In this document: piece by piece, positions 16,971 to 38,031 of the stretch
How positions within the stretch are numbered: position 1 is the stretch's first letter
How the letters are laid out: each line of letters begins with the position of its first letter
Source: Pseudomonadota bacterium
Lineage (GTDB): Bacteria > Pseudomonadota > Gammaproteobacteria > Burkholderiales > JAJZQI01
Direction: 5' to 3'
DNA: 51,816 nucleotides
NCBI GenBank assembly: GCA_021851875.1
Contig: JAJZQI010000016.1
Location: forward strand, 1 to 51,816
Notes under the pieces: generated by a model
Seen by the model: only the letters and a program-made list of their open reading frames with translations
What the model was told of the DNA's origin: nothing
The model's database searches: none
Program-made: the position numbers and the translations under genes

Positions 16971-18155
16971 ATGGCTAAATTCATTCGCATGACCGATCTG
17001 GACCTGAAGGGCAAGCGCGTATTCATCCGCGCCGACCTGAACGTTCCAGTTAAAGACGGCAAAGTGACCTCCGACGCACGCATTTCCGCCTCCATGGCGA
17101 CCATCAAGCACTGCGTGAACGCAGGCGCCAAAGTGATGGTGACTTCCCACCTGGGCCGCCCGGAAGAAGGCGTGTACTCGGAAGAAAACTCGCTGAAGCC
17201 GGTCGCTGAAGACATGTCCGCCAAACTGGGCAAGCCGGTCCGCCTGATCAAGGACTGGGTCGACGGTGGCTTTGATGTGGCCGAAGGTGAAGTGGTTCTG
17301 CTGGAAAACGTGCGCTTCAACAAGGGCGAAAAAAAGAGCCTGGACGAAACCGCCGAGAAATACGCCGCTCTGTGCGACGTATTTGTAATGGACGCTTTCG
17401 GTACCGCTCACCGCGCCGAAGGCTCTACCCACGGTATCGCCAAGTTCGCCCCGGTTGCCTGCGCCGGCATGCTGCTCTCCGAAGAACTGGAAGCCCTGGA
17501 CAAGGCGCTGGCCAACCCGGCTCGCCCGATGGTGGCCATCGTGGGCGGGTCTAAAGTGTCTACCAAGTTGACCGTACTGGAATCCCTGTCGGAAAAAGTT
17601 GACCAGATGGTTGTCGGCGGCGGTATCGCCAACACCTTCATCAAGGCCACCGGCGGCAACGTCGGCAAGTCCCTGTGCGAAGACGATCTGGTACCGACTG
17701 CTCAGGCCCTGATGAAGAAAATGGCAGCCCGTGGCGCCTCCATCCCGGTTGCTGTTGACGTTGTCTGCGGTAAGAAATTTGACGCCAACGAACCGGCTGT
17801 ACTGAAAGACGTCGGTGCTGTAGCCGATGACGACATGATTTTCGATATCGGCCCCAAGTCTGCTCAGGAACTGGTGGACATCATCATGAAGGCTGGTACC
17901 GTGGTATGGAACGGCCCGGTTGGCGTGTTCGAGTTCGACCAGTTCGGCGACGGCACCAAGAAGATTGCCGAAGCGATTGCCAACACCAAGGCCTTTACTC
18001 TGGCTGGTGGTGGTGACACTATTGCAGCTATCCAGAAGTACGACATTTATGACAAAGTGTCCTACATCTCCACCGCCGGCGGCGCTTTCCTGGAATACCT
18101 GGAAGGCAAGACCCTGCCGGCCGTAGCGATTCTGGAAGAACGCGCCAAGGGCTAA
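16971..18155 (+). CDS. pgk: Phosphoglycerate kinase
   Basis: Phosphorylates 3-phosphoglycerate in the Calvin cycle direction (CbbK role). 394 aa. Visible signatures are [17 protein letters not shown] at the N-terminus, [10 protein letters not shown] near 59, [13 protein letters not shown] near 108, and the C-terminal [12 protein letters not shown] nucleotide site. An AGGAG ribosome site precedes the ATG. It follows gap and the 7-mer repeat hairpin, and pyk starts 69 bp later. Confidence 0.98.
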
Positions 18156-21828: not shown

Positions 21829-22044
21829 TCAGTCCGGCCAAACACGGTCGTCATTCAGGTAGATCTTCTTCGGTTCTGCCGGTTTAGCCGGTTTGGCAGC
21901 AGGTGCCGGAGCGGGTGCAACCGCTTCAACCGGCTTTGACTCACTGGCAGTCTTGGCGGCTGCTGTGCGCGTTGTACGCGGGCGAGTGGCAGCAGGACTC
22001 TGGATGCTAGCTTTCAGTTTGTCCTGCAAAGTGTTCTTGCTCAT
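21829..22044 (-). CDS. mcdB: Carboxysome positioning protein McdB (alpha type)
   Basis: 71-aa protein: a short N-terminal MSKNTLQDKLKASIQ segment, a low-complexity Ala/Pro/Lys middle (APAPAPAAKPAKPAEP) predicted to be disordered, and a C-terminal DDRVWPD end with the single Trp expected of alpha-McdB. Alpha-McdB proteins link carboxysomes to the nucleoid-bound ATPase McdA. The start codon overlaps the mcdA stop (ATGA). The call rests on the partner gene, the disordered composition and the Trp end; sequence conservation in this family is low. Confidence 0.82.
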   Translation of the reverse strand: MSKNTLQDKLKASIQSPAATRPRTTRTAAAKTASESKPVEAVAPAPAPAAKPAKPAEPKKIYLNDDRVWPD

Positions 22045-22670
22045 AAAACCTCCTGTAGGATTGATTCGATTTCCTGTACCGCATCGCGTGCGCGCGGGCC
22101 AAGCTGATAGACGCTTTTGCCTTCGAGCATGGCCAGGCGGAAAACGGCTCTGCGCTTTACTGTGGATTGCAGAATAGGCAGCGGCATCTGTCCCAGCACC
22201 TGACTCATTGCGCGCGACAGGGCACTTTTGTCTTCCACCTGATTCAACAGCAGCCAGGCTTTCAGGCCCGGATTGCTGCCGCGCGCCTTGTCGATCGCCT
22301 GGGAAGCGGACGAGCTGGCCCACAGATCAAGTGGCGAGGGCAAGACGGGAATCAAGGCCTGGTCGACACGCTTGAGAAAGCGGCCGGTGATATTCATGTC
22401 AACCGAAGGCGGGCAATCCACCACAACGTAATCAAAACGGCTGGCCAGTTCGTCCAACCGCTCGACGGTGGAGCCGGCATGCACTTCCATGCCCGCACTG
22501 ACATCGCCGGCAGCCCACTGCGACCAGTGCTGCAAGGCACCCTGAGGGTCGGCATCGAGCAGAGCCACACTACCACGCTGGGCCAGACCGGCAGCCAGAT
22601 TCAATGCCAGGGTGGATTTGCCGCAGCCCCCCTTGAGATTGGCCAGTGCGAACGTTTTGGCTGATGGCAT
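22041..22670 (-). CDS. mcdA: Carboxysome positioning ATPase McdA (ParA family)
   Basis: 209-aa ParA/MinD-type ATPase. The deviant Walker A NLKGGCGKSTL is at residues about 9-19, with the signature Lys before GG; switch I DADPQGALQHW is near 39-49 and Walker B VVVDCPPSVD near 82-91. The ribosome site GAGGGA overlaps the acRAF stop. ParA proteins of this size inside cso loci form gradients on the nucleoid that space carboxysomes. Being between acRAF and mcdB makes plasmid or chromosome partitioning unlikely. Confidence 0.9.
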   Translation of the reverse strand: MPSAKTFALANLKGGCGKSTLALNLAAGLAQRGSVALLDADPQGALQHWSQWAAGDVSAGMEVHAGSTVERLDELASRFDYVVVDCPPSVDMNITGRFLKRVDQALIPVLPSPLDLWASSSASQAIDKARGSNPGLKAWLLLNQVEDKSALSRAMSQVLGQMPLPILQSTVKRRAVFRLAMLEGKSVYQLGPRARDAVQEIESILQEVL

Positions 22671-24712: not shown

Positions 24713-26536
24713 ATGAGCCAAGCGACTGAACAAGCTGCGACTCCGCGGTTGAGCGGCCGAGAGGCTGCTATCGCGAGGAGGCAAGCTCTGGCTACGCACG
24801 GAAAGGCCGCCCTCAAAGGCACCTCTCCGGCACAGCCAGCGGCACCCGCCCCTCAAGCGCAAACGCCCGCACCGAGTCAGGCAGATGTTTCAAGCACTGT
24901 TGTAAGCACGCCTGCTGAAAGCGCTGCTGCAGTTCAGGGTCACACCTGCTCCTGCCAGCACAACAGCACCCGCACCGAGGCATCCACTCCGATTCCTCCG
25001 GCACCGGTACCGGCATCACGTCAGCGCCGTATCGAGCAATCGCTGAAAGGTCGCGGCAACGCACCTGCAGCTCGCCCGACCGGCCGTGTACGCCCGGCCC
25101 CGCCGAAGGTTGAAGTGGGCACCACGCTGTCCGGTTCCGAAGTAACCGGCACCCAGGTAGAACGCACCACCCGCGTAACCGGCAACGAACCCGGCACCTG
25201 CCGCACTGTAACCGGCACCGAATACATCGGCACCGAGCAGTACAGCAAGTTCTGCGGTACATCACCGACGCCGAATGCCGCCAAGGTCGGCGTGTCCACC
25301 ACCAGCCACGGTCGCTCGGTGACCGGCACTGAAGTGGGCCGTATCGCCAAGGTAACCGGCGACGAAAGCGGTACCTGCAAACGCGTAACCGGTACCGAGT
25401 ACCTGTCTGCAGAAGAGTCTTCCGCTTTCTGCGGTACGCGTCTGGAGCCGTCCGCCGAAAAGGTCACTGTTGGCCGTACCGCCGGCAGCAACCTGTTTAC
25501 CGGTGGCGATGCCGACCGCAGCAGCCGTGTAACCGGCGGCGATGCAGGCGCAGGCAGCCGTGTAACCGGGGGCAACTACGCCAATCCCGGCATCCGTCGC
25601 GAGCAGGGGGACAGCCTAAAAAAGCCCCAAGCCAGTCACCCGAGCGTTGGCAGCGCGGTGAGAGGCACCCTACCGGTGCTTCCGCCGAGCCGTACCGCCG
25701 CTGAAGCTTCTGCTTCTTCACGAGTGACTGGTTCTCGCTACTTAACTGACGATCCGTTCATTTCGACCCAGCGGGCTCAGCCGTTTATGCCGCCCGCCAT
25801 GGCCGCCCGGATGTTACGGGAAAGTCAGGTAACCGGAATGGTGATGGCTATGCCGAGCAAATTGACAGGTGATGAATATCACGCCAGCAAGCCGGTAACA
25901 GGGACTTCGTCCATCGCGGTTGAACATCTGGTGTCGCGCCCTGCCGGCGCAAGCACCGGCCGCACCCTGGGCGAAGCCATCTATGTGCACCCCCGGGCCA
26001 CAAGCCCGGATGCTGCGGCAGACCTCGGCCACAACCGGCTGATGGATGAACCGCAGGCGCAATTGCCGAGTGGATCGGGTGCGTTTTCCATGACTTCGCC
26101 AACCATGGCCGCAGGACAACGCAACCAGGCCCGCATTACCGGCAGTGCTTACGGTGGAGGCAGCGGCCGCATCAGCGGTTCGATGGCCCGGGCCGTAGGA
26201 CTGGTATCGGGTACACCGGAATTTCGTTATCGCGACGACAGCCAGCCTGTTGCACGCATCGAAGCCCCGGTGGAACAACCTTCGACTGAACGCATTACCG
26301 GTGAAGGCCGCGAGCGCACGATTACAGGCGACGCCTGGGATCGCGGCGACCGCGTAACCGGCACCGAAGGTCAGTCTGCAACACGTCGTAATCCGACCTT
26401 GCGCGGCATGCCGCCTGTGGTACGACAAACAAGGCAAACGGAAAAGCCGGAAGCAGCGGAAATTCGCATCACCGGTGGTAGCGGTCCGGCAACCAAGGGG
26501 GCCACAGTGACCCTCTCTGGTGGAGCACGCGGTTAA
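24713..26536 (+). CDS. csoS2: Carboxysome scaffold protein CsoS2
   Basis: Disordered scaffold that binds Rubisco through N-terminal repeats and the shell through middle and C-terminal repeats. 607 aa, clearly shorter than the roughly 870 aa of Halothiobacillus. I see only two N-repeats (residues about 12-34, GREAAIARRQALATHGK, and a weaker one at 101-123), two full M-repeats (130-185 and 189-245, each with VTGTE and paired Cys: GTCRTVTGTEY/KFCGT, GTCKRVTGTEY/AFCGT) and a degenerate third without Cys (248-289). The conserved C-terminal region with many V/I-T/S-G motifs follows. The start at MSQATEQ has an AAGGAA ribosome site. An in-frame slippery heptamer lies at codons 302-304. Confidence 0.95.
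   Translation: MSQATEQAATPRLSGREAAIARRQALATHGKAALKGTSPAQPAAPAPQAQTPAPSQADVSSTVVSTPAESAAAVQGHTCSCQHNSTRTEASTPIPPAPVPASRQRRIEQSLKGRGNAPAARPTGRVRPAPPKVEVGTTLSGSEVTGTQVERTTRVTGNEPGTCRTVTGTEYIGTEQYSKFCGTSPTPNAAKVGVSTTSHGRSVTGTEVGRIAKVTGDESGTCKRVTGTEYLSAEESSAFCGTRLEPSAEKVTVGRTAGSNLFTGGDADRSSRVTGGDAGAGSRVTGGNYANPGIRREQGDSLKKPQASHPSVGSAVRGTLPVLPPSRTAAEASASSRVTGSRYLTDDPFISTQRAQPFMPPAMAARMLRESQVTGMVMAMPSKLTGDEYHASKPVTGTSSIAVEHLVSRPAGASTGRTLGEAIYVHPRATSPDAAADLGHNRLMDEPQAQLPSGSGAFSMTSPTMAAGQRNQARITGSAYGGGSGRISGSMARAVGLVSGTPEFRYRDDSQPVARIEAPVEQPSTERITGEGRERTITGDAWDRGDRVTGTEGQSATRRNPTLRGMPPVVRQTRQTEKPEAAEIRITGGSGPATKGATVTLSGGARG
25618..25661 (+). promoter_or_regulatory. Candidate -1 programmed frameshift site in csoS2
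   Basis: The heptamer A AAA AAG (25618-25624) is in the exact frame needed for tandem slippage (zero-frame codons CTA AAA AAG). A stem-loop follows 11 nt later: TCACC (25636-25640) pairs with GGTGA (25657-25661), and GCG (25644-25646) with CGC (25654-25656), around a 7-nt loop. After a -1 shift the frame closes at TGA 25702-25704, giving a product of about 330 aa that keeps the N- and M-repeats but loses the C-terminal region. This matches the short CsoS2A and long CsoS2B forms known from Halothiobacillus. Confidence 0.75.
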
Positions 26537-26569: not shown

Positions 26570-28180
26570 ATGAACACTCGTAACCGCCCTGAACATATGA
26601 AACAGCCTAGCCAGACTGCACCCGTTGCAATGGCTATGAAGAGCACACCGGTCACGCACGCCATGGCAACAAACATTGTTGCCTCCTGGCCGCAGCGCCC
26701 AAGTTTCTGCCCGCCCGGCAGCCACTTGGACTCGCGTGGCGAGTGTGTGCCCGATGCTCAATCGACAGACGGTCACCCGCTGGTACAGGCAGCCCAAAAC
26801 GCCCGCCTGGCCGAGTACGAGCGCACTGTTCGTGCGCGTTTCGACGGTATCGTGCCGGCTTTGAAGCGTATTTCAGCCTTACAGCACGAGGAAGATTTCG
26901 TGCAACGTGGTCAGGAGATTGCGCGGGAGACACTGGGTTTTGTGTTGCCCGCGCAAGTTCTTCAAGACTCCTGGGTTTCTACCCTGGACATGAAACAACT
27001 TTACGGATTCAGCGTACTGCATACGTTTCGGGATCTCGCTGCCCAGCTGCCTTTGCCGCTCGACAGCCGTGCCGAAGAAGCAGAAAACATGACGCGCTTT
27101 TTAATTGAGTGCGGCTTCCACGAAGTGGATGTCAGCCCCTGTGCCGACGGCCGCCTGAAAGGCCTGCTGCAGTACATCCTGCGCCTGCCGCAGCGTGCCG
27201 TACTGCGGGTGCAGTCCCATGCGGGCGCCATGTTCGACGTGGAAGGCAATGTTAAGAAATGGGCCGAAACCGAATTGCGCCGCTTCCGCGAGGGTCTGCC
27301 CACGCTACCGGATGCAGGAACCCGCTACCTGAAGATTGCGGTGTACCACTACAGCAGCTCGGACCCGACGCACGAGGGCTGTGCGGCACACGGCAGTAAC
27401 GAACTGGGCGCCGCCGAAGCGGCATTGAACAAACTGAAGGCTTTGCGTACCGCTATTGAAAACGGCTTCTGCTGCGGCGCTTCGCTGGCGACTCTGCTGA
27501 TCGGCGTGGATACCGACACCGACAGCATCAAGATTCACATCCCCGACAGTAAGGGTGAAATGAGTCTGTATCGCCTGGTAGACAACGCCGAGCTGTTTGA
27601 GGCCACGAAAAACATGAATGCGGCACAAGCGCGCGAATACATTCTCGCCGCCATCGACAAGGCTGCCCAGACTGTGGGCTGGGGCCAGGGCGAGGGCGCG
27701 CCGGAAGCAGGCATGCGCCGCCTGATCGCCCGCCTGTTCGAGAACAACTGCTCGCAGATCGCTTATGTAAAGAGCGAACACGGCGGGCGCTACCAGGACA
27801 TCGGCCACCAGGAACGTTTTATTTGTGTGGGCGAAGGATTTGATGAATTGCAGCTGCGCAACCTGACTTATCTGGCGCAACTGTACACGGTGGAAGAAGG
27901 CGCAAAGGACCTGGATGTCGGCATCAAGATTTTTACCGGGCTGAATATCCGTCGCGGTTTGCCGGCCCCCATCGCCATCCACAACCGTTATGACGCAGGC
28001 GTGCCGGGCGCGCGTGAGCGAGCGATTGAGCGTTGCAAACGCATTCACGACGCTATCCACAACCGCTACCGGAGCCTGGTTGAGCAAGGACTGATCGTGT
28101 GCGGCCTGACAATTCAGGCCAAGACGCCGGGCAGCCCGCTGGAAGTAGTCGAATTGGTTGATGAACCGGTTGGACATTGA
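26570..28180 (+). CDS. csoSCA: Carboxysomal carbonic anhydrase CsoSCA (CsoS3)
   Basis: Epsilon-class (beta-like) carbonic anhydrase inside the alpha-carboxysome; it turns bicarbonate into CO2 next to Rubisco. 536 aa. Zinc ligands and catalytic dyad are intact: C191, D193 and R195 in CADGR, then H260 and C271 in VYHYSSSDPTHEGC; the spacing equals that of the Halothiobacillus enzyme (C173, D175, R177, H242, C253). The first five residues MNTRN also match that protein, supporting this weakly led start. The N-terminal 80 residues are variable and probably disordered. It follows csoS2 by 33 bp. Confidence 0.96.
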   Translation: MNTRNRPEHMKQPSQTAPVAMAMKSTPVTHAMATNIVASWPQRPSFCPPGSHLDSRGECVPDAQSTDGHPLVQAAQNARLAEYERTVRARFDGIVPALKRISALQHEEDFVQRGQEIARETLGFVLPAQVLQDSWVSTLDMKQLYGFSVLHTFRDLAAQLPLPLDSRAEEAENMTRFLIECGFHEVDVSPCADGRLKGLLQYILRLPQRAVLRVQSHAGAMFDVEGNVKKWAETELRRFREGLPTLPDAGTRYLKIAVYHYSSSDPTHEGCAAHGSNELGAAEAALNKLKALRTAIENGFCCGASLATLLIGVDTDTDSIKIHIPDSKGEMSLYRLVDNAELFEATKNMNAAQAREYILAAIDKAAQTVGWGQGEGAPEAGMRRLIARLFENNCSQIAYVKSEHGGRYQDIGHQERFICVGEGFDELQLRNLTYLAQLYTVEEGAKDLDVGIKIFTGLNIRRGLPAPIAIHNRYDAGVPGARERAIERCKRIHDAIHNRYRSLVEQGLIVCGLTIQAKTPGSPLEVVELVDEPVGH

Positions 28181-28342: not shown

Positions 28343-28594
28343 ATGAAAATCATGCGCGTAGAAAAAACGCTCGTTTCGACGAATCGGGTGCAGGAAATGG
28401 GCAACCGCCCGCTCCTGGTGGTGCAGGAAAAAACCGGCGGCGCCCGCAGCGTGGCGGTCGATGCCATCGGCTGCATCCCCGGCGACTGGGTGATCTGCGT
28501 GGGCAGCTCGGCTGCGCGCGAAGCGGCCGGCGCCAAGGACTTCCCCAGTGATCTGACCATCATCGGCATCATCGATCACTGGCAGGAGAGCTGA
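28343..28594 (+). CDS. csoS4A: Carboxysome shell vertex protein CsoS4A
   Basis: 83-aa bacterial microcompartment vertex (BMV, EutN/CcmL) protein; pentamers cap the shell corners. It starts MKIMRVEKTLVSTNR and carries the GCIPGDWVICVGSSAAREA segment typical of the family. A GAGGTGA ribosome site precedes the ATG. csoS4B starts one base after its stop, so the two are translationally coupled. Confidence 0.96.
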   Translation: MKIMRVEKTLVSTNRVQEMGNRPLLVVQEKTGGARSVAVDAIGCIPGDWVICVGSSAAREAAGAKDFPSDLTIIGIIDHWQES

Positions 28595-28595
28595 C

Positions 28596-28856
28596 ATGGA
28601 AATCATGCGTGTGGTGTCCGACCTGGTCGTCACGCGGCGGATTCCCGGACTGCTGACCAGTTCGCTGCTGATACTGGCAGACCAGAAAGGCAAGTTGTCT
28701 GTGGCAGTGGATCCGGTGGGTGTGCCGCCGGGCAAATGGGTGATTACAGTGGCCGGCTCTGCGGCGCGTTACGCGGCCGGCAACTACAAGATACTGACCG
28801 ACCTGACCGTAGCCGGAATCATCGATCAGTGGGAAGAAGACGCACCGGCCAAGTGA
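28596..28856 (+). CDS. csoS4B: Carboxysome shell vertex protein CsoS4B
   Basis: 86-aa BMV vertex protein, paralogue of CsoS4A: MEIMRVVSDLVVTRR at the start and VGVPPGKWVITVAGSAARYA in the middle. A GGAGAG ribosome site lies inside the end of csoS4A. Low-copy pentamer subunits such as these close the icosahedral shell. Followed by the csoS1 genes. Confidence 0.96.
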   Translation: MEIMRVVSDLVVTRRIPGLLTSSLLILADQKGKLSVAVDPVGVPPGKWVITVAGSAARYAAGNYKILTDLTVAGIIDQWEEDAPAK

Positions 28857-28906: not shown

Positions 28907-29197
28907 ATGGCAAATGGTATGACTGGTATTGCACTGGGCATGATTGAAACCCGCGGTCTGGTTCCGGCGATTGAAGCCGCCGACGCCATGACCAAGGCGG
29001 CTGAAGTCCGTCTGATCGGCCGCCAGTTCGTCGGCGGCGGTTACGTGACCGTGCTGGTGCGCGGCGAAACCGGTGCGGTAAACGCCGCTGTACGTGCCGG
29101 TGCTGATGCCTGCGAACGCGTCGGTGACGGCCTGGTCGCTGCGCACATCATCGCCCGCGTGCACAGCGAAGTTGAAGGCATCCTGCCGACCGCCTAA
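28907..29197 (+). CDS. csoS1: Carboxysome shell hexamer protein CsoS1 (copy 1)
   Basis: 96-aa single-domain BMC hexamer protein, the main facet tile. The core (GIALGMIETRGLVPAIEAAD, RLIGRQFVGGGYVTVLVRGE) is identical with the other three copies; only the C-terminal end differs (GILPTA). An AAAGGAG ribosome site precedes the ATG. Its nucleotide sequence differs from copies 2-4 at a number of silent sites, so it is the most diverged copy. A 206-bp hairpin-rich spacer separates it from copy 2. Confidence 0.97.
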   Translation: MANGMTGIALGMIETRGLVPAIEAADAMTKAAEVRLIGRQFVGGGYVTVLVRGETGAVNAAVRAGADACERVGDGLVAAHIIARVHSEVEGILPTA

Positions 29198-29203
29198 GTA
29201 AAT

Positions 29204-29347
29204 GCTGATTTATTCCAGTTCGTAATAAATCAGCCGGACGGATGCGCGGCACATGTCCGCACATCCTTACGCCTTCAATGACTAACGTCATTGAGCGGCT
29301 GGGCGATCAACCCGTCCAGCAGGAAGCGCCAATAAATAAGCGCTTCC
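29204..29347. repeat. Hairpin cluster between csoS1 copies 1 and 2
   Basis: Four stems. GCTGATTTATT with AATAAATCAGC (29204-29234) is a perfect 11-bp stem. GGATG-GCGG pairs with CCGC-CATCC (about 29240-29265). TCAATGAC and GTCATTGA (29275-29294) are perfect around a TAAC loop. GGAAGCGC and GCGCTTCC (29322-29347) are perfect. The segment 29270-29305 matches the complement of 28224-28259 at 30 of 36 positions. Confidence 0.65.
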
Positions 29348-29348
29348 A

Positions 29349-29403
29349 GAAGGCAAGTAATTCGTTTCATCACTGAAGCATCACACATTTTAGGAGAAAC
29401 AAA
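29349..29403 (+). pseudogene. Remnant of a csoS1 3' end and spacer
   Basis: The bases GAAGGCAAGTAATTCGTT at 29349 read Glu-Gly-Lys-stop and equal the end of csoS1 copy 3 plus its downstream spacer (30038 onward). The match continues through the ribosome site into csoS1 copy 2. No csoS1 body precedes it here, so it marks the edge of a duplicated segment. Confidence 0.75.
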
Positions 29404-29712
29404 ATGGCAAATGGTATGACTGGTATTGCACTGGGCATGATTGAAACCCGCGGTCTGGTGCCGGCAATTGAAGCCGCTGACGCAATGACCAAGGCCGCTG
29501 AAGTCCGTCTGATCGGCCGTCAATTCGTCGGCGGTGGTTACGTGACCGTGCTGGTACGCGGCGAAACCGGTGCGGTAAACGCAGCTGTACGTGCCGGCGC
29601 TGATGCGTGCGAACGCGTAGGTGACGGCCTGGTCGCTGCTCACATCATCGCCCGTGTTCACAGCGAAGTTGAAGGCATCCTGCCGACCACCAACGATGCA
29701 CCGATTCTGTAA
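29404..29712 (+). CDS. csoS1: Carboxysome shell hexamer protein CsoS1 (copy 2)
   Basis: 102-aa BMC hexamer protein, identical in the core to copy 1. The longer C-terminus (GILPTTNDAPIL) is the main difference and would extend from the edge of the hexamer. Ribosome site TTAGGAGAAAC. Leader and body are almost the same as copy 4 at the DNA level, so it arose from a recent tandem duplication or is kept alike by gene conversion. Confidence 0.97.
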   Translation: MANGMTGIALGMIETRGLVPAIEAADAMTKAAEVRLIGRQFVGGGYVTVLVRGETGAVNAAVRAGADACERVGDGLVAAHIIARVHSEVEGILPTTNDAPIL

Positions 29713-29749
29713 TTTGATTGCGTAAATTTTTAGATTCAGGAGAAACAAA

Positions 29750-30049
29750 ATGGCTACTGGAATGAATGGTATTGCACTGGGCATGATTGAAACCCGCGGT
29801 CTGGTGCCGGCGATTGAAGCCGCTGACGCAATGACCAAGGCCGCTGAAGTCCGTCTGATCGGCCGTCAATTCGTCGGTGGCGGTTACGTGACCGTGCTGG
29901 TGCGCGGCGAAACCGGTGCGGTAAACGCCGCTGTACGTGCTGGCGCTGATGCGTGCGAACGCGTGGGTGACGGCCTGGTCGCTGCGCACATCATCGCCCG
30001 CGTTCACAGCGAAGTTGAAGGCATTCTGCCCTCCCCCGAAGGCAAGTAA
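29750..30049 (+). CDS. csoS1: Carboxysome shell hexamer protein CsoS1 (copy 3)
   Basis: 99-aa BMC hexamer protein. It starts MATGMNGIALG rather than MANGMTGIALG and ends GILPSPEGK. Its leader differs from copies 2 and 4 apart from the shared AGGAGAAAC ribosome site. Forty-three bases separate it from copy 4. It probably co-assembles with the other copies in the shell facets. Confidence 0.97.
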   Translation: MATGMNGIALGMIETRGLVPAIEAADAMTKAAEVRLIGRQFVGGGYVTVLVRGETGAVNAAVRAGADACERVGDGLVAAHIIARVHSEVEGILPSPEGK

Positions 30050-30092
30050 TTCGTTGTATCACTGAAGCATCACACATTTTAGGAGAAACAAA

Positions 30093-30389
30093 ATGGCAAA
30101 TGGTATGACTGGTATTGCACTGGGCATGATTGAAACCCGCGGTCTGGTGCCGGCAATTGAAGCCGCTGACGCAATGACCAAGGCCGCTGAAGTCCGTCTG
30201 ATCGGCCGTCAATTCGTCGGCGGTGGTTACGTGACCGTGCTGGTACGCGGCGAAACCGGTGCGGTAAACGCAGCTGTACGTGCTGGCGCTGATGCCTGCG
30301 AACGCGTAGGTGACGGCCTGGTGGCTGCGCACATCATCGCCCGCGTTCACAACGAAGTTGAAGGCATCCTGCCGACCGCTAACGCTTAG
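30093..30389 (+). CDS. csoS1: Carboxysome shell hexamer protein CsoS1 (copy 4)
   Basis: 98-aa BMC hexamer protein, near identical to copy 2 in leader and body. It ends HNEVEGILPTANA, with Asn where the other copies have Ser in HSEVEG. Ribosome site TTAGGAGAAAC. It is the last of four csoS1 genes, followed by a hairpin and the ferritin-like gene. Confidence 0.97.
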   Translation: MANGMTGIALGMIETRGLVPAIEAADAMTKAAEVRLIGRQFVGGGYVTVLVRGETGAVNAAVRAGADACERVGDGLVAAHIIARVHNEVEGILPTANA

Positions 30390-36545: not shown

Positions 36546-36609
36546 TCAACCCATGTCTCGATAGCTGACATGCACTGATTGATTTTTTGATTCTTAATTG
36601 GAGGTTGTT

Positions 36610-38031
36610 ATGGCCGTAAAAACATACAACGCCGGTGTGAAGGAATACCGCCAGACTTACTGGATGCCTGAATACACCCCGCTGGACACCGATATTCTGG
36701 CTTGCTTCAAGATCACCCCGCAGGCGGGCGTTGATCGTGAAGAAGCTGCCGCCGCTGTAGCCGCTGAATCTTCTACCGGTACCTGGACCACCGTTTGGAC
36801 CGATCTGCTGACCGACCTGGACTACTACAAAGGCCGCGCCTATGCTATCGAAGACGTACCGGGCGACGACACCTGCTTCTACGCTTTCATCGCTTACCCG
36901 ATCGACCTGTTCGAAGAAGGTTCCGTTGTAAACGTCTTTACCTCCCTGGTCGGCAACGTATTCGGCTTCAAGGCCGTACGTGCCCTGCGTCTGGAAGACG
37001 TGCGCTTCCCGATCGCCTACGTTAAGACCTGTGGCGGCCCGCCGCACGGTATCCAGGTCGAGCGCGACATGATGAACAAGTACGGCCGTCCGATGCTGGG
37101 TTGTACCATCAAGCCCAAGCTCGGTCTGTCCGCCAAGAACTACGGCCGTGCCGTATACGAATGTCTGCGTGGCGGTCTGGACTTCACCAAGGACGACGAG
37201 AACGTCAACAGCCAGCCGTTCATGCGTTGGCGTCAGCGTTTCGACTTCGTAATGGAAGCGATCGAAAAGTCTGAACGTGAAACCGGCGAACGCAAAGGTC
37301 ACTACCTGAACGTGACCGCTCCGACCCCGGAAGAAATGTACAAGCGTGCTGAATACGCCAAGGAAATCGGCGCGCCGATCATCATGCACGACTACATCAC
37401 CGGTGGCTTTACCGCCAACACCGGTCTGGCTAACTGGTGCCGCGACAACGGCATGCTGCTGCATATCCACCGCGCCATGCACGCTGTACTGGACCGTAAC
37501 CCGCACCACGGCATCCACTTCCGCGTGCTGACCAAGATTCTGCGTCTGTCCGGTGGTGACCACCTGCACTCCGGTACCGTAGTAGGTAAGCTGGAAGGCG
37601 ACCGTGAAGCCACCCTGGGCTGGATCGACATGATGCGCGACAGCTTCGTTAAAGAAGATCGCAGCCGCGGCATCTTCTTTGACCAGGACTGGGGCTCCAT
37701 GCCGGGCGTTCTGCCGGTTGCTTCCGGCGGTATTCACGTATGGCACATGCCGGCTCTCGTGACCATCTTCGGTGACGACTCCGTACTGCAGTTCGGTGGC
37801 GGTACCCTGGGTCACCCGTGGGGTAACGCTGCCGGCGCCGCTGCTAACCGCGTAGCGCTGGAAGCTTGTGTGGAAGCACGTAACCGCGGTGTTGCCATCG
37901 AGAAAGAAGGCAAGGAAGTTCTGACCAAGGCTGCCGCAAACAGCCCGGAACTGAAGATCGCCATGGAAACCTGGAAAGAGATCAAGTTCGAGTTCGACAC
38001 CGTCGACAAACTGGACGTGGCTCACAAGTAA
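36610..38031 (+). CDS. cbbL: Ribulose bisphosphate carboxylase large subunit, form IA
   Basis: Fixes CO2 onto RuBP; 473 aa. The start [18 protein letters not shown] is the usual form IA N-terminus with a GGAGG ribosome site. Active-site segments are intact: [15 protein letters not shown], the carbamylated Lys in [22 protein letters not shown], and loop 6 [12 protein letters not shown]. It is followed by cbbS, cbbQ and cbbO. It is the only form I large subunit in the window and is not placed in front of csoS2, where carboxysomal cbbL normally lies. Confidence 0.98.

Follow-up and report, generated by a model that had tools for sequence, protein, structure and literature searches.

A probable programmed −1 frameshift site with a conserved 26-residue tail in an alpha-carboxysome csoS2 gene

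The csoS2 gene of the DNA analysed here (a stretch of 51,816 nucleotides, referred to as the window) encodes the long form of the alpha-carboxysome scaffold protein, and its slippery heptamer A_AAA_AAG very probably serves as a programmed −1 ribosomal frameshift site. Ribosomes that shift there would finish with a peptide of 26 residues and, judging from the comparison of nine related genes, this tail is kept by selection as a peptide and is not filler. The conservation in related bacteria of 26 residues that are reached only by slipping suggests that the short form of CsoS2 matters.

The csoS2 locus and its slip site

The frame of 607 codons starts with the ATG at 24713 and extends to 26536 on the forward strand; its product matches PF12288 (CsoS2_M) with an E-value of 4.7e-79. 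This match, together with the csoSCA, csoS4-type, and csoS1-type genes downstream, identifies it as an alpha-carboxysome csoS2. On the same strand it is followed by csoSCA, which encodes the carboxysome shell carbonic anhydrase (26570–28180; TIGR02701, E 1.3e-201), by two EutN/CcmL-type genes (28343–28856; PF03319) that are csoS4A and csoS4B by position, and by four csoS1-like shell genes (28907–30389), of which copy 1 matches PF00936 (BMC), while copies 2–4 were recognised by eye. Next in order are a ferritin-like gene, a proton-antiporter-type gene, and a dabA homologue; the antiporter-type gene beside the dabA homologue is presumably dabB. A LysR-type gene comes after the dabA homologue, and then the Rubisco large chain at 36598–38031. 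On the opposite strand, before csoS2, there are a LysR regulator (best NCBIfam match CbbR, at 271.5 bits under the cut-off of 450), a pterin-dehydratase-like gene, and a ParA-family ATPase (175.6 bits, with a cut-off of 180). We read this as an ordinary alpha-carboxysome locus. Elsewhere in the same genome, which is 98.75% complete, no second match to the CsoS2 protein was found at an E-value of 0.001.

The protein sequences of the four consecutive csoS1-like genes look almost identical. The usual locus has three csoS1 genes, and the four copies are read as a recent duplication or conversion. The gene for the Rubisco large chain is placed after the dabA homologue and the LysR-type gene and not 5' of csoS2; in the Halothiobacillus operon, the large chain stands before csoS2. 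A frame at 21829–22323 on the reverse strand, which has no Pfam match, adjoins the ParA-family ATPase at 22041–22670. Its end, VWPD, resembles that of McdB, the carboxysome-positioning partner.

The first-pass annotation of this DNA had proposed an in-frame heptamer at codons 302–304 of csoS2, a −1 stop after 26 codons, and a short product of about 330 residues without the C-terminal region, and each of these claims is borne out. The heptamer A_AAA_AAG lies at 25618–25624 of the forward strand in a phase that fits a −1 shift, the codons being read as CTA AAA AAG. The −1 frame, which overlaps the 0-frame of csoS2 at 25624–25704 (forward strand), continues through 26 codons to a TGA at 25702–25704 and encodes the tail APSQSPERWQRGERHPTGASAEPYRR. 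The predicted short product has 330 residues, lacks the C-terminal region, and retains two intact M-repeats and a degenerate third. The site had also been placed at the end of the M-repeats, which is not quite the case because a further repeat-like stretch lies 3' of the slip; in five relatives, a full M-repeat starts at the slip itself. The conserved and selected −1 peptide and an upstream Shine–Dalgarno-like element go beyond that annotation.

From the codon make-up of this csoS2, an in-phase A_AAA_AAR is expected 0.023 times per gene. It occurs in two of the 31 frames of the window that were taken as genes (12,695 codons), namely in csoS2 and in the frame at 16971–18155. The latter frame has 394 residues, and its in-phase AAAAAAG, at codon 120, is probably due to chance. 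The dnaX homologue of the same genome (L112, on contig C38) carries an in-phase A_AAA_AAA at codon 388 with a 10-codon −1 tail, so this gene may make a short form too.

Conservation and selection of the −1 peptide

The csoS2 genes used for comparison were drawn from the family to which the window belongs, three other families, two genera, samples of the window's order and class, and named genomes. The contig of L002, a genome of the window's genus, matches that of L004 in length, and the two were taken as one genome. Once duplicates and frames failing a motif filter had been dropped, 124 distinct csoS2 frames remained. The combination of A_AAA_AAR with a −1 tail of exactly 26 residues is found in nine of them: that of the window (L001), that of a genome of the same genus (L002), L031 and L052, which together are called the window's lineage here, and L005, L017, L018, L053, and L037, called the other lineage. 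All nine heptamers share one alignment column, with the sequence A_AAA_AAG in six genes and A_AAA_AAA in three. It had been put forward beforehand that the site would be called into question if close relatives had lost the heptamer or its frame; heptamer, phase, and 26-codon tail are kept in the same-genus genome and in seven further genes. The heptamer is absent from L006 and L007, which are somewhat more distant relatives.

Eight of the nine members belong to four coded families of one order, and L005 is classified only to Proteobacteria. In the order sample, csoS2 was present in 34 of 300 genomes, and the gene is of the A6, 26-residue type in six of these 34. In the class sample, csoS2 was present in 72 of 369 genomes; the window's gene and 70 others were examined (G643 was left out, and the fragment L141 failed the filter), and the A_AAA_AAR, 26-residue type was found in none of the 69 class-sample genes besides the window's, some of which are incomplete. 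A_AAA_AAR at a different place, followed by tails of various lengths, is present in 11 of the other 115 frames, and three of these 11 also have CCCAAAG with a 3-residue tail. In 24 further frames there is a CCCAAAR with a tail of fewer than six residues, which in some of them is probably a chance occurrence. The long csoS2 genes L149, L150, and L151, which belong to one coded family, have an early in-phase AAAAAAG with the 10-residue tail GG(D/N)RSHDFRP and, besides it, a later CCCAAAG with a 3-residue tail; the early heptamer may be a second slip site. For csoS2 in plasmids there were two records, both below 60% identity, and no csoS2 relatives were found in viral contigs.

A tree of the last 190 residues was built by a quick method from 45 of the 124 frames, the choice being ours. 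The nine members fall into groups of four and five with weak support, L007 (a long branch without the heptamer) is placed among the four, and the slip-site label requires two changes. A single origin of the slip site is possible.

The nine −1 tails align without gaps and share the pattern QS..RW..GERHP.G...E.YRR. Eight of the 26 columns are invariant (Q4, S5, W9, G12, P16, G18, E22, and R26), and others are nearly so. In the five genes of the other lineage, the 0-frame is an ordinary M-repeat that starts at the slip (KKVETSHTSAG...VTGDE), and the −1 stop is a TGA within the GDE or GVE codons of the repeat. In the window's four, the 0-frame repeat pattern has been lost (KKPQASHPSVGSAVRGTLPVLPPSRTAAEA) and the −1 peptide and its stop have been kept. 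The tail had no matches in the PDB, and a tail profile run over six frames of the DNA collected by that stage recovered only the nine genes and their duplicate loci, the next best hit having an E-value of 0.056. The tail is probably a short binding motif.

Selection on the overlap was tested with these nine related sequences. In the codon-position test each alignment column is counted once, and the variable columns of the window's lineage are distributed over 0-frame positions 1, 2, and 3 as 8, 10, and 4 in the overlap and as 224, 181, and 436 in the rest (Fisher p 0.002). The corresponding figures are 9, 9, and 10 vs 172, 140, and 439 for the other lineage (p 0.019), and 14, 18, and 13 vs 280, 243, and 474 for all nine (p 0.015). 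Since the third position of a frame-0 codon is the first position of a −1 codon, this is the pattern predicted by selection on the −1 peptide. When gapless alignment windows are ranked by their position-3 share, lowest first, the overlap is 3rd of 292 in the window's lineage, 9th of 363 in the other, and 1st of 231 in all nine. The two that lie below it in the window's lineage both overlap it, and the lowest share clear of the overlap is 0.43 in the window's lineage, 0.44 in the other, and 0.40 in all nine. Pairwise codon-position counts give a Fisher p of 1.3e-9, a value that is inflated because pairs share branches and the tests on nine related genes share ancestry.

In the overlap, the 0-frame pN/pS is 1.21 within the window's lineage, 0.74 within the other, and 1.42 between the two, compared with gene medians of 0.27, 0.22, and 0.31. 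The −1-frame values are 0.49, 1.05, and 0.55, with medians of about 2, and the +1-frame values are 0.53, 1.38, and 0.89. Within the window's lineage the +1 value is as low as the −1 value, so that pN/pS cannot separate the frames there, although it does set −1 apart from +1 between the lineages. We read these values as a sign that constraint acts on both frames in the other lineage and mostly on frame −1 in the window's. In order of −1 pN/pS, the overlap takes 8th place among 278 gapless alignment windows of the window's lineage, 15th place among 351 of the other lineage, and first place among the 217 of the comparison between lineages. The eight best that were listed in each case have their start at columns 319–337, and all overlap the tail region.

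Synonymous resampling of frame 0 provided a null distribution for the −1 similarity between the lineages, which is 80.9 compared with a null of 0.5 (sd 5.5, maximum 29.1). In a sliding z test over 210 alignment windows, the overlap is highest for both −1 (z 15.8, score 81) and +1 (z 13.1, score 47). In the sliding similarity test it ranked 7th of 217 in one run and 1st of 210 in another, for which positions were listed; the twelve best of the 210 all start at columns 315–329. A control set was formed by 521 overlapping csoS2 segments with a 0-frame similarity of at least 35 to four slip repeats; in the nine genes, segments closer than about 30 codons to the slip were excluded. The −1 similarity of these segments has a mean of 7.5 (sd 15.8, maximum 55.5), and none of them reaches that of the tails, which is 77–107 in the nine genes. 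The four genes of the window's lineage score 30–42 in frame 0 and 77–84.5 in frame −1; L006, which is without the heptamer, has a very similar 0-frame repeat with a score of 77 and a −1 score of 21. An open −1 frame alone is weak evidence, since the −1 frame was open for at least 26 codons in 25–86% of the resampling trials, depending on the gene (and for exactly 26 codons in 3–24%). In these comparisons, what exceeds chance is the conservation across nine genes.

Stimulatory elements and alternative explanations

A Shine–Dalgarno-like AGGGGG (25605–25610, forward strand) lies 7 nt before the heptamer and could pair with the anti-Shine–Dalgarno sequence. The window's 8-mer CAGGGGGA has −9.1 kcal/mol against the anti-Shine–Dalgarno octamer, a strength that is reached by 0.4% of 8-mers and 3.9% of 17-position windows in the gene. 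In eight of the nine genes, such an 8-mer of −6.4 to −10.6 kcal/mol ends 6–9 nt before the heptamer; an equally strong one occurs in 1–14% of 17-position windows in these eight, the 14% belonging to L005. The ninth gene, L031, has no strong element of this kind, and its value of −3.7 kcal/mol is as common as 41% of windows. Internal Shine–Dalgarno elements stimulate −1 shifting at a distance of 9–14 nt (PMC5009743, in part). Measured by eye, the distance from the core of the element to the heptamer is 7–9 nt, which is at or just below the quoted range, depending on the counting point. The heptamer is followed by CC in the window, L002, and L052, and in one E. coli study no dinucleotide 3' of the heptamer was more shift-prone than CC (PMC5009743, in part).

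The evidence for RNA structure is weaker. A stem-loop had been proposed 11 nt downstream of the heptamer, and its position is correct, with TCACC starting at 25636; as a conserved structure it is without covariation support. This TCACC/GGTGA stem (25636–25661, forward strand) can form four pairs in all nine sequences, the fifth is broken in five of them, and the evidence for it is weak. The fold of the window's sequence is not significantly stronger than that of shuffled sequences (z −0.70, −1.06, and −1.11 for three stretches), and the z of the minimum free energy ranges from −2.31 to +0.59 over the nine sequences. Covariation in the stem together with a second hairpin was equalled in 275 of 500 shuffles. 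In this combined structure 83% of cells pair, compared with 32–48% for slid versions, an excess that is usual when a structure has been derived from one member of the set. RNAalifold also gave a candidate hairpin, CCAG.C/G.YTGG, 7 nt after the heptamer (25632–25650, forward strand). Its five pairs are kept in all nine sequences with one-sided changes only, and it is weak evidence that says little because the stretch is nearly invariant. A pseudoknot between CCAA and TTGG, which had been suggested as well, was rejected, CCAA being present in just two of the nine sequences.

If the heptamer is used, ribosomes would arrive at A_AAA_AAG with the anti-Shine–Dalgarno sequence of their 16S rRNA paired to the upstream AGGGGG, which would stimulate the shift, and a 3' structure might help. 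In a fraction of the ribosomes, tRNA-Lys would re-pair one base back; these ribosomes would read the 26 codons of the −1 frame and then stop, producing the short CsoS2 of 330 residues alongside the long form of 607. The short form would be composed of the N-region, two intact M-repeats, the degenerate third, and the 26-residue tail. It would bind Rubisco via the N-region and the shell facets via the M-repeats, and would be without the C-region, which anchors near the shell vertices.

The same −1 tail could also arise during transcription, if RNA polymerase added one A in the A6/A7 run, with no ribosomal shift. The run is indeed A6 or A7 in all nine genes, and transcriptional slippage makes the short form of dnaX in Thermus thermophilus (PMC5009743, in part). 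However, the A-run is short, in six of the nine genes a G comes after an A6 run, giving precisely the shift-prone A_AAA_AAG, and the Shine–Dalgarno-like element found in eight of the nine is expected only for a ribosomal mechanism. Transcriptional slippage is considered improbable. We regard as more improbable still the idea that the overlap owes its conservation to a role as an RNA or DNA element, with the −1 peptide as a by-product. In the window's lineage, 0-frame position 3, which is the first position of the −1 codon, changes least, and 0-frame position 2, which is the third, changes most; pN/pS between the lineages is 0.55 for −1, 0.89 for +1, and 1.42 for the 0-frame; and structural covariation is no higher than in shuffles. 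These observations argue against such an element, although the nine sequences share invariant blocks, CAGTCA and GGTGA among them, the +1 similarity is raised too (47, z 13.1, vs 81, z 15.8, for −1), and the +1 pN/pS is 0.53 within the window's lineage.

It is hardly credible that the heptamer and the open −1 frame are there by chance, or that they hitch-hike on the conservation of the M-repeat in frame 0. A 26-codon open −1 frame is common under synonymous resampling (25–86%), and the TGA of the other lineage sits in the GDE or GVE codons of the repeat itself, as hitch-hiking would have it. The window's lineage, however, lost the 0-frame repeat motif yet kept the −1 peptide with its stop. In L006 the 0-frame repeat is preserved (score 77) and the −1 peptide is not (21), and the highest score among the 521 control segments is 55.5.

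Comparison with known systems and significance

Programmed −1 ribosomal frameshifting, the reading preferred here, has a precedent in csoS2 of Halothiobacillus neapolitanus, where it is 50% efficient and gives rise to CsoS2A and CsoS2B (PMC5009743, in part). The short CsoS2 of that species has 570 residues, three of which come from the −1 frame, and the gene apparently has no 5' Shine–Dalgarno stimulator (PMC5009743, in part). The slip is located in the sixth M-repeat (PMC12918739 and PMC11365436, both in part). The case described here is alike in the gene, in the direction of the shift, in a slip within the M-region, and in a short form without the C-region. In contrast to Halothiobacillus, the window's slip is at the start of an earlier repeat, its tail consists of 26 conserved residues and not of three, and A_AAA_AAR is combined with a Shine–Dalgarno-like element. 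Among the collected frames, those of the 3-residue-tail type have CCCAAAR just before a (V)TGDE motif, and we infer that this is the Halothiobacillus site. In Thiomonas intermedia, the two CsoS2 forms were reported at about 1:1 (PMC4499774, in part). Recombinant Halothiobacillus shells took up a short form with two M-repeats and did not take up a form with a single repeat (PMC11481516, in part); the predicted short form of the window has two intact repeats besides the degenerate third.

The natural shift site of Escherichia coli dnaX, which yields tau and gamma, is A_AAA_AAG, and the window's site resembles it in this heptamer and in the upstream Shine–Dalgarno-like stimulator. The two differ in that dnaX has a tested stem-loop, whereas the window has only a candidate stem, and in that dnaX stops one codon after the shift, whereas the tail in the window comprises 26 conserved residues (PMC5009743, in part). 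Frameshifting by −1 in csoS2 is thus known in kind, while the place of the slip, the dnaX-like Shine–Dalgarno element, and the long tail under selection are new as far as seen. No description of this variant was found in the literature on CsoS2 frameshifting that was covered, a 2016 J Mol Biol paper being outside its scope.

For Halothiobacillus, it has been reported that carboxysomes need the long CsoS2 in order to form and that the short one is not essential (PMC11365436, in part), and why some carboxysomes need only one CsoS2 form is called unclear in a review (PMC12312397, in part). A lineage in which selection acts on a peptide of the short form alone would be evidence of a function for the short form. 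We consider it likely that the tail is an overlapping gene segment exclusive to the short CsoS2, with a binding site of its own for Rubisco, a shell hexamer, or another carboxysome part. In the window's lineage it would have outranked the long-form reading, so that the M-repeat decayed and the tail stayed. The 26-residue peptide would offer a defined handle for finding the job of the short form, and the slip site with its upstream element would be a natural dnaX-like cassette with which the proportions of long and short CsoS2 could be tuned.
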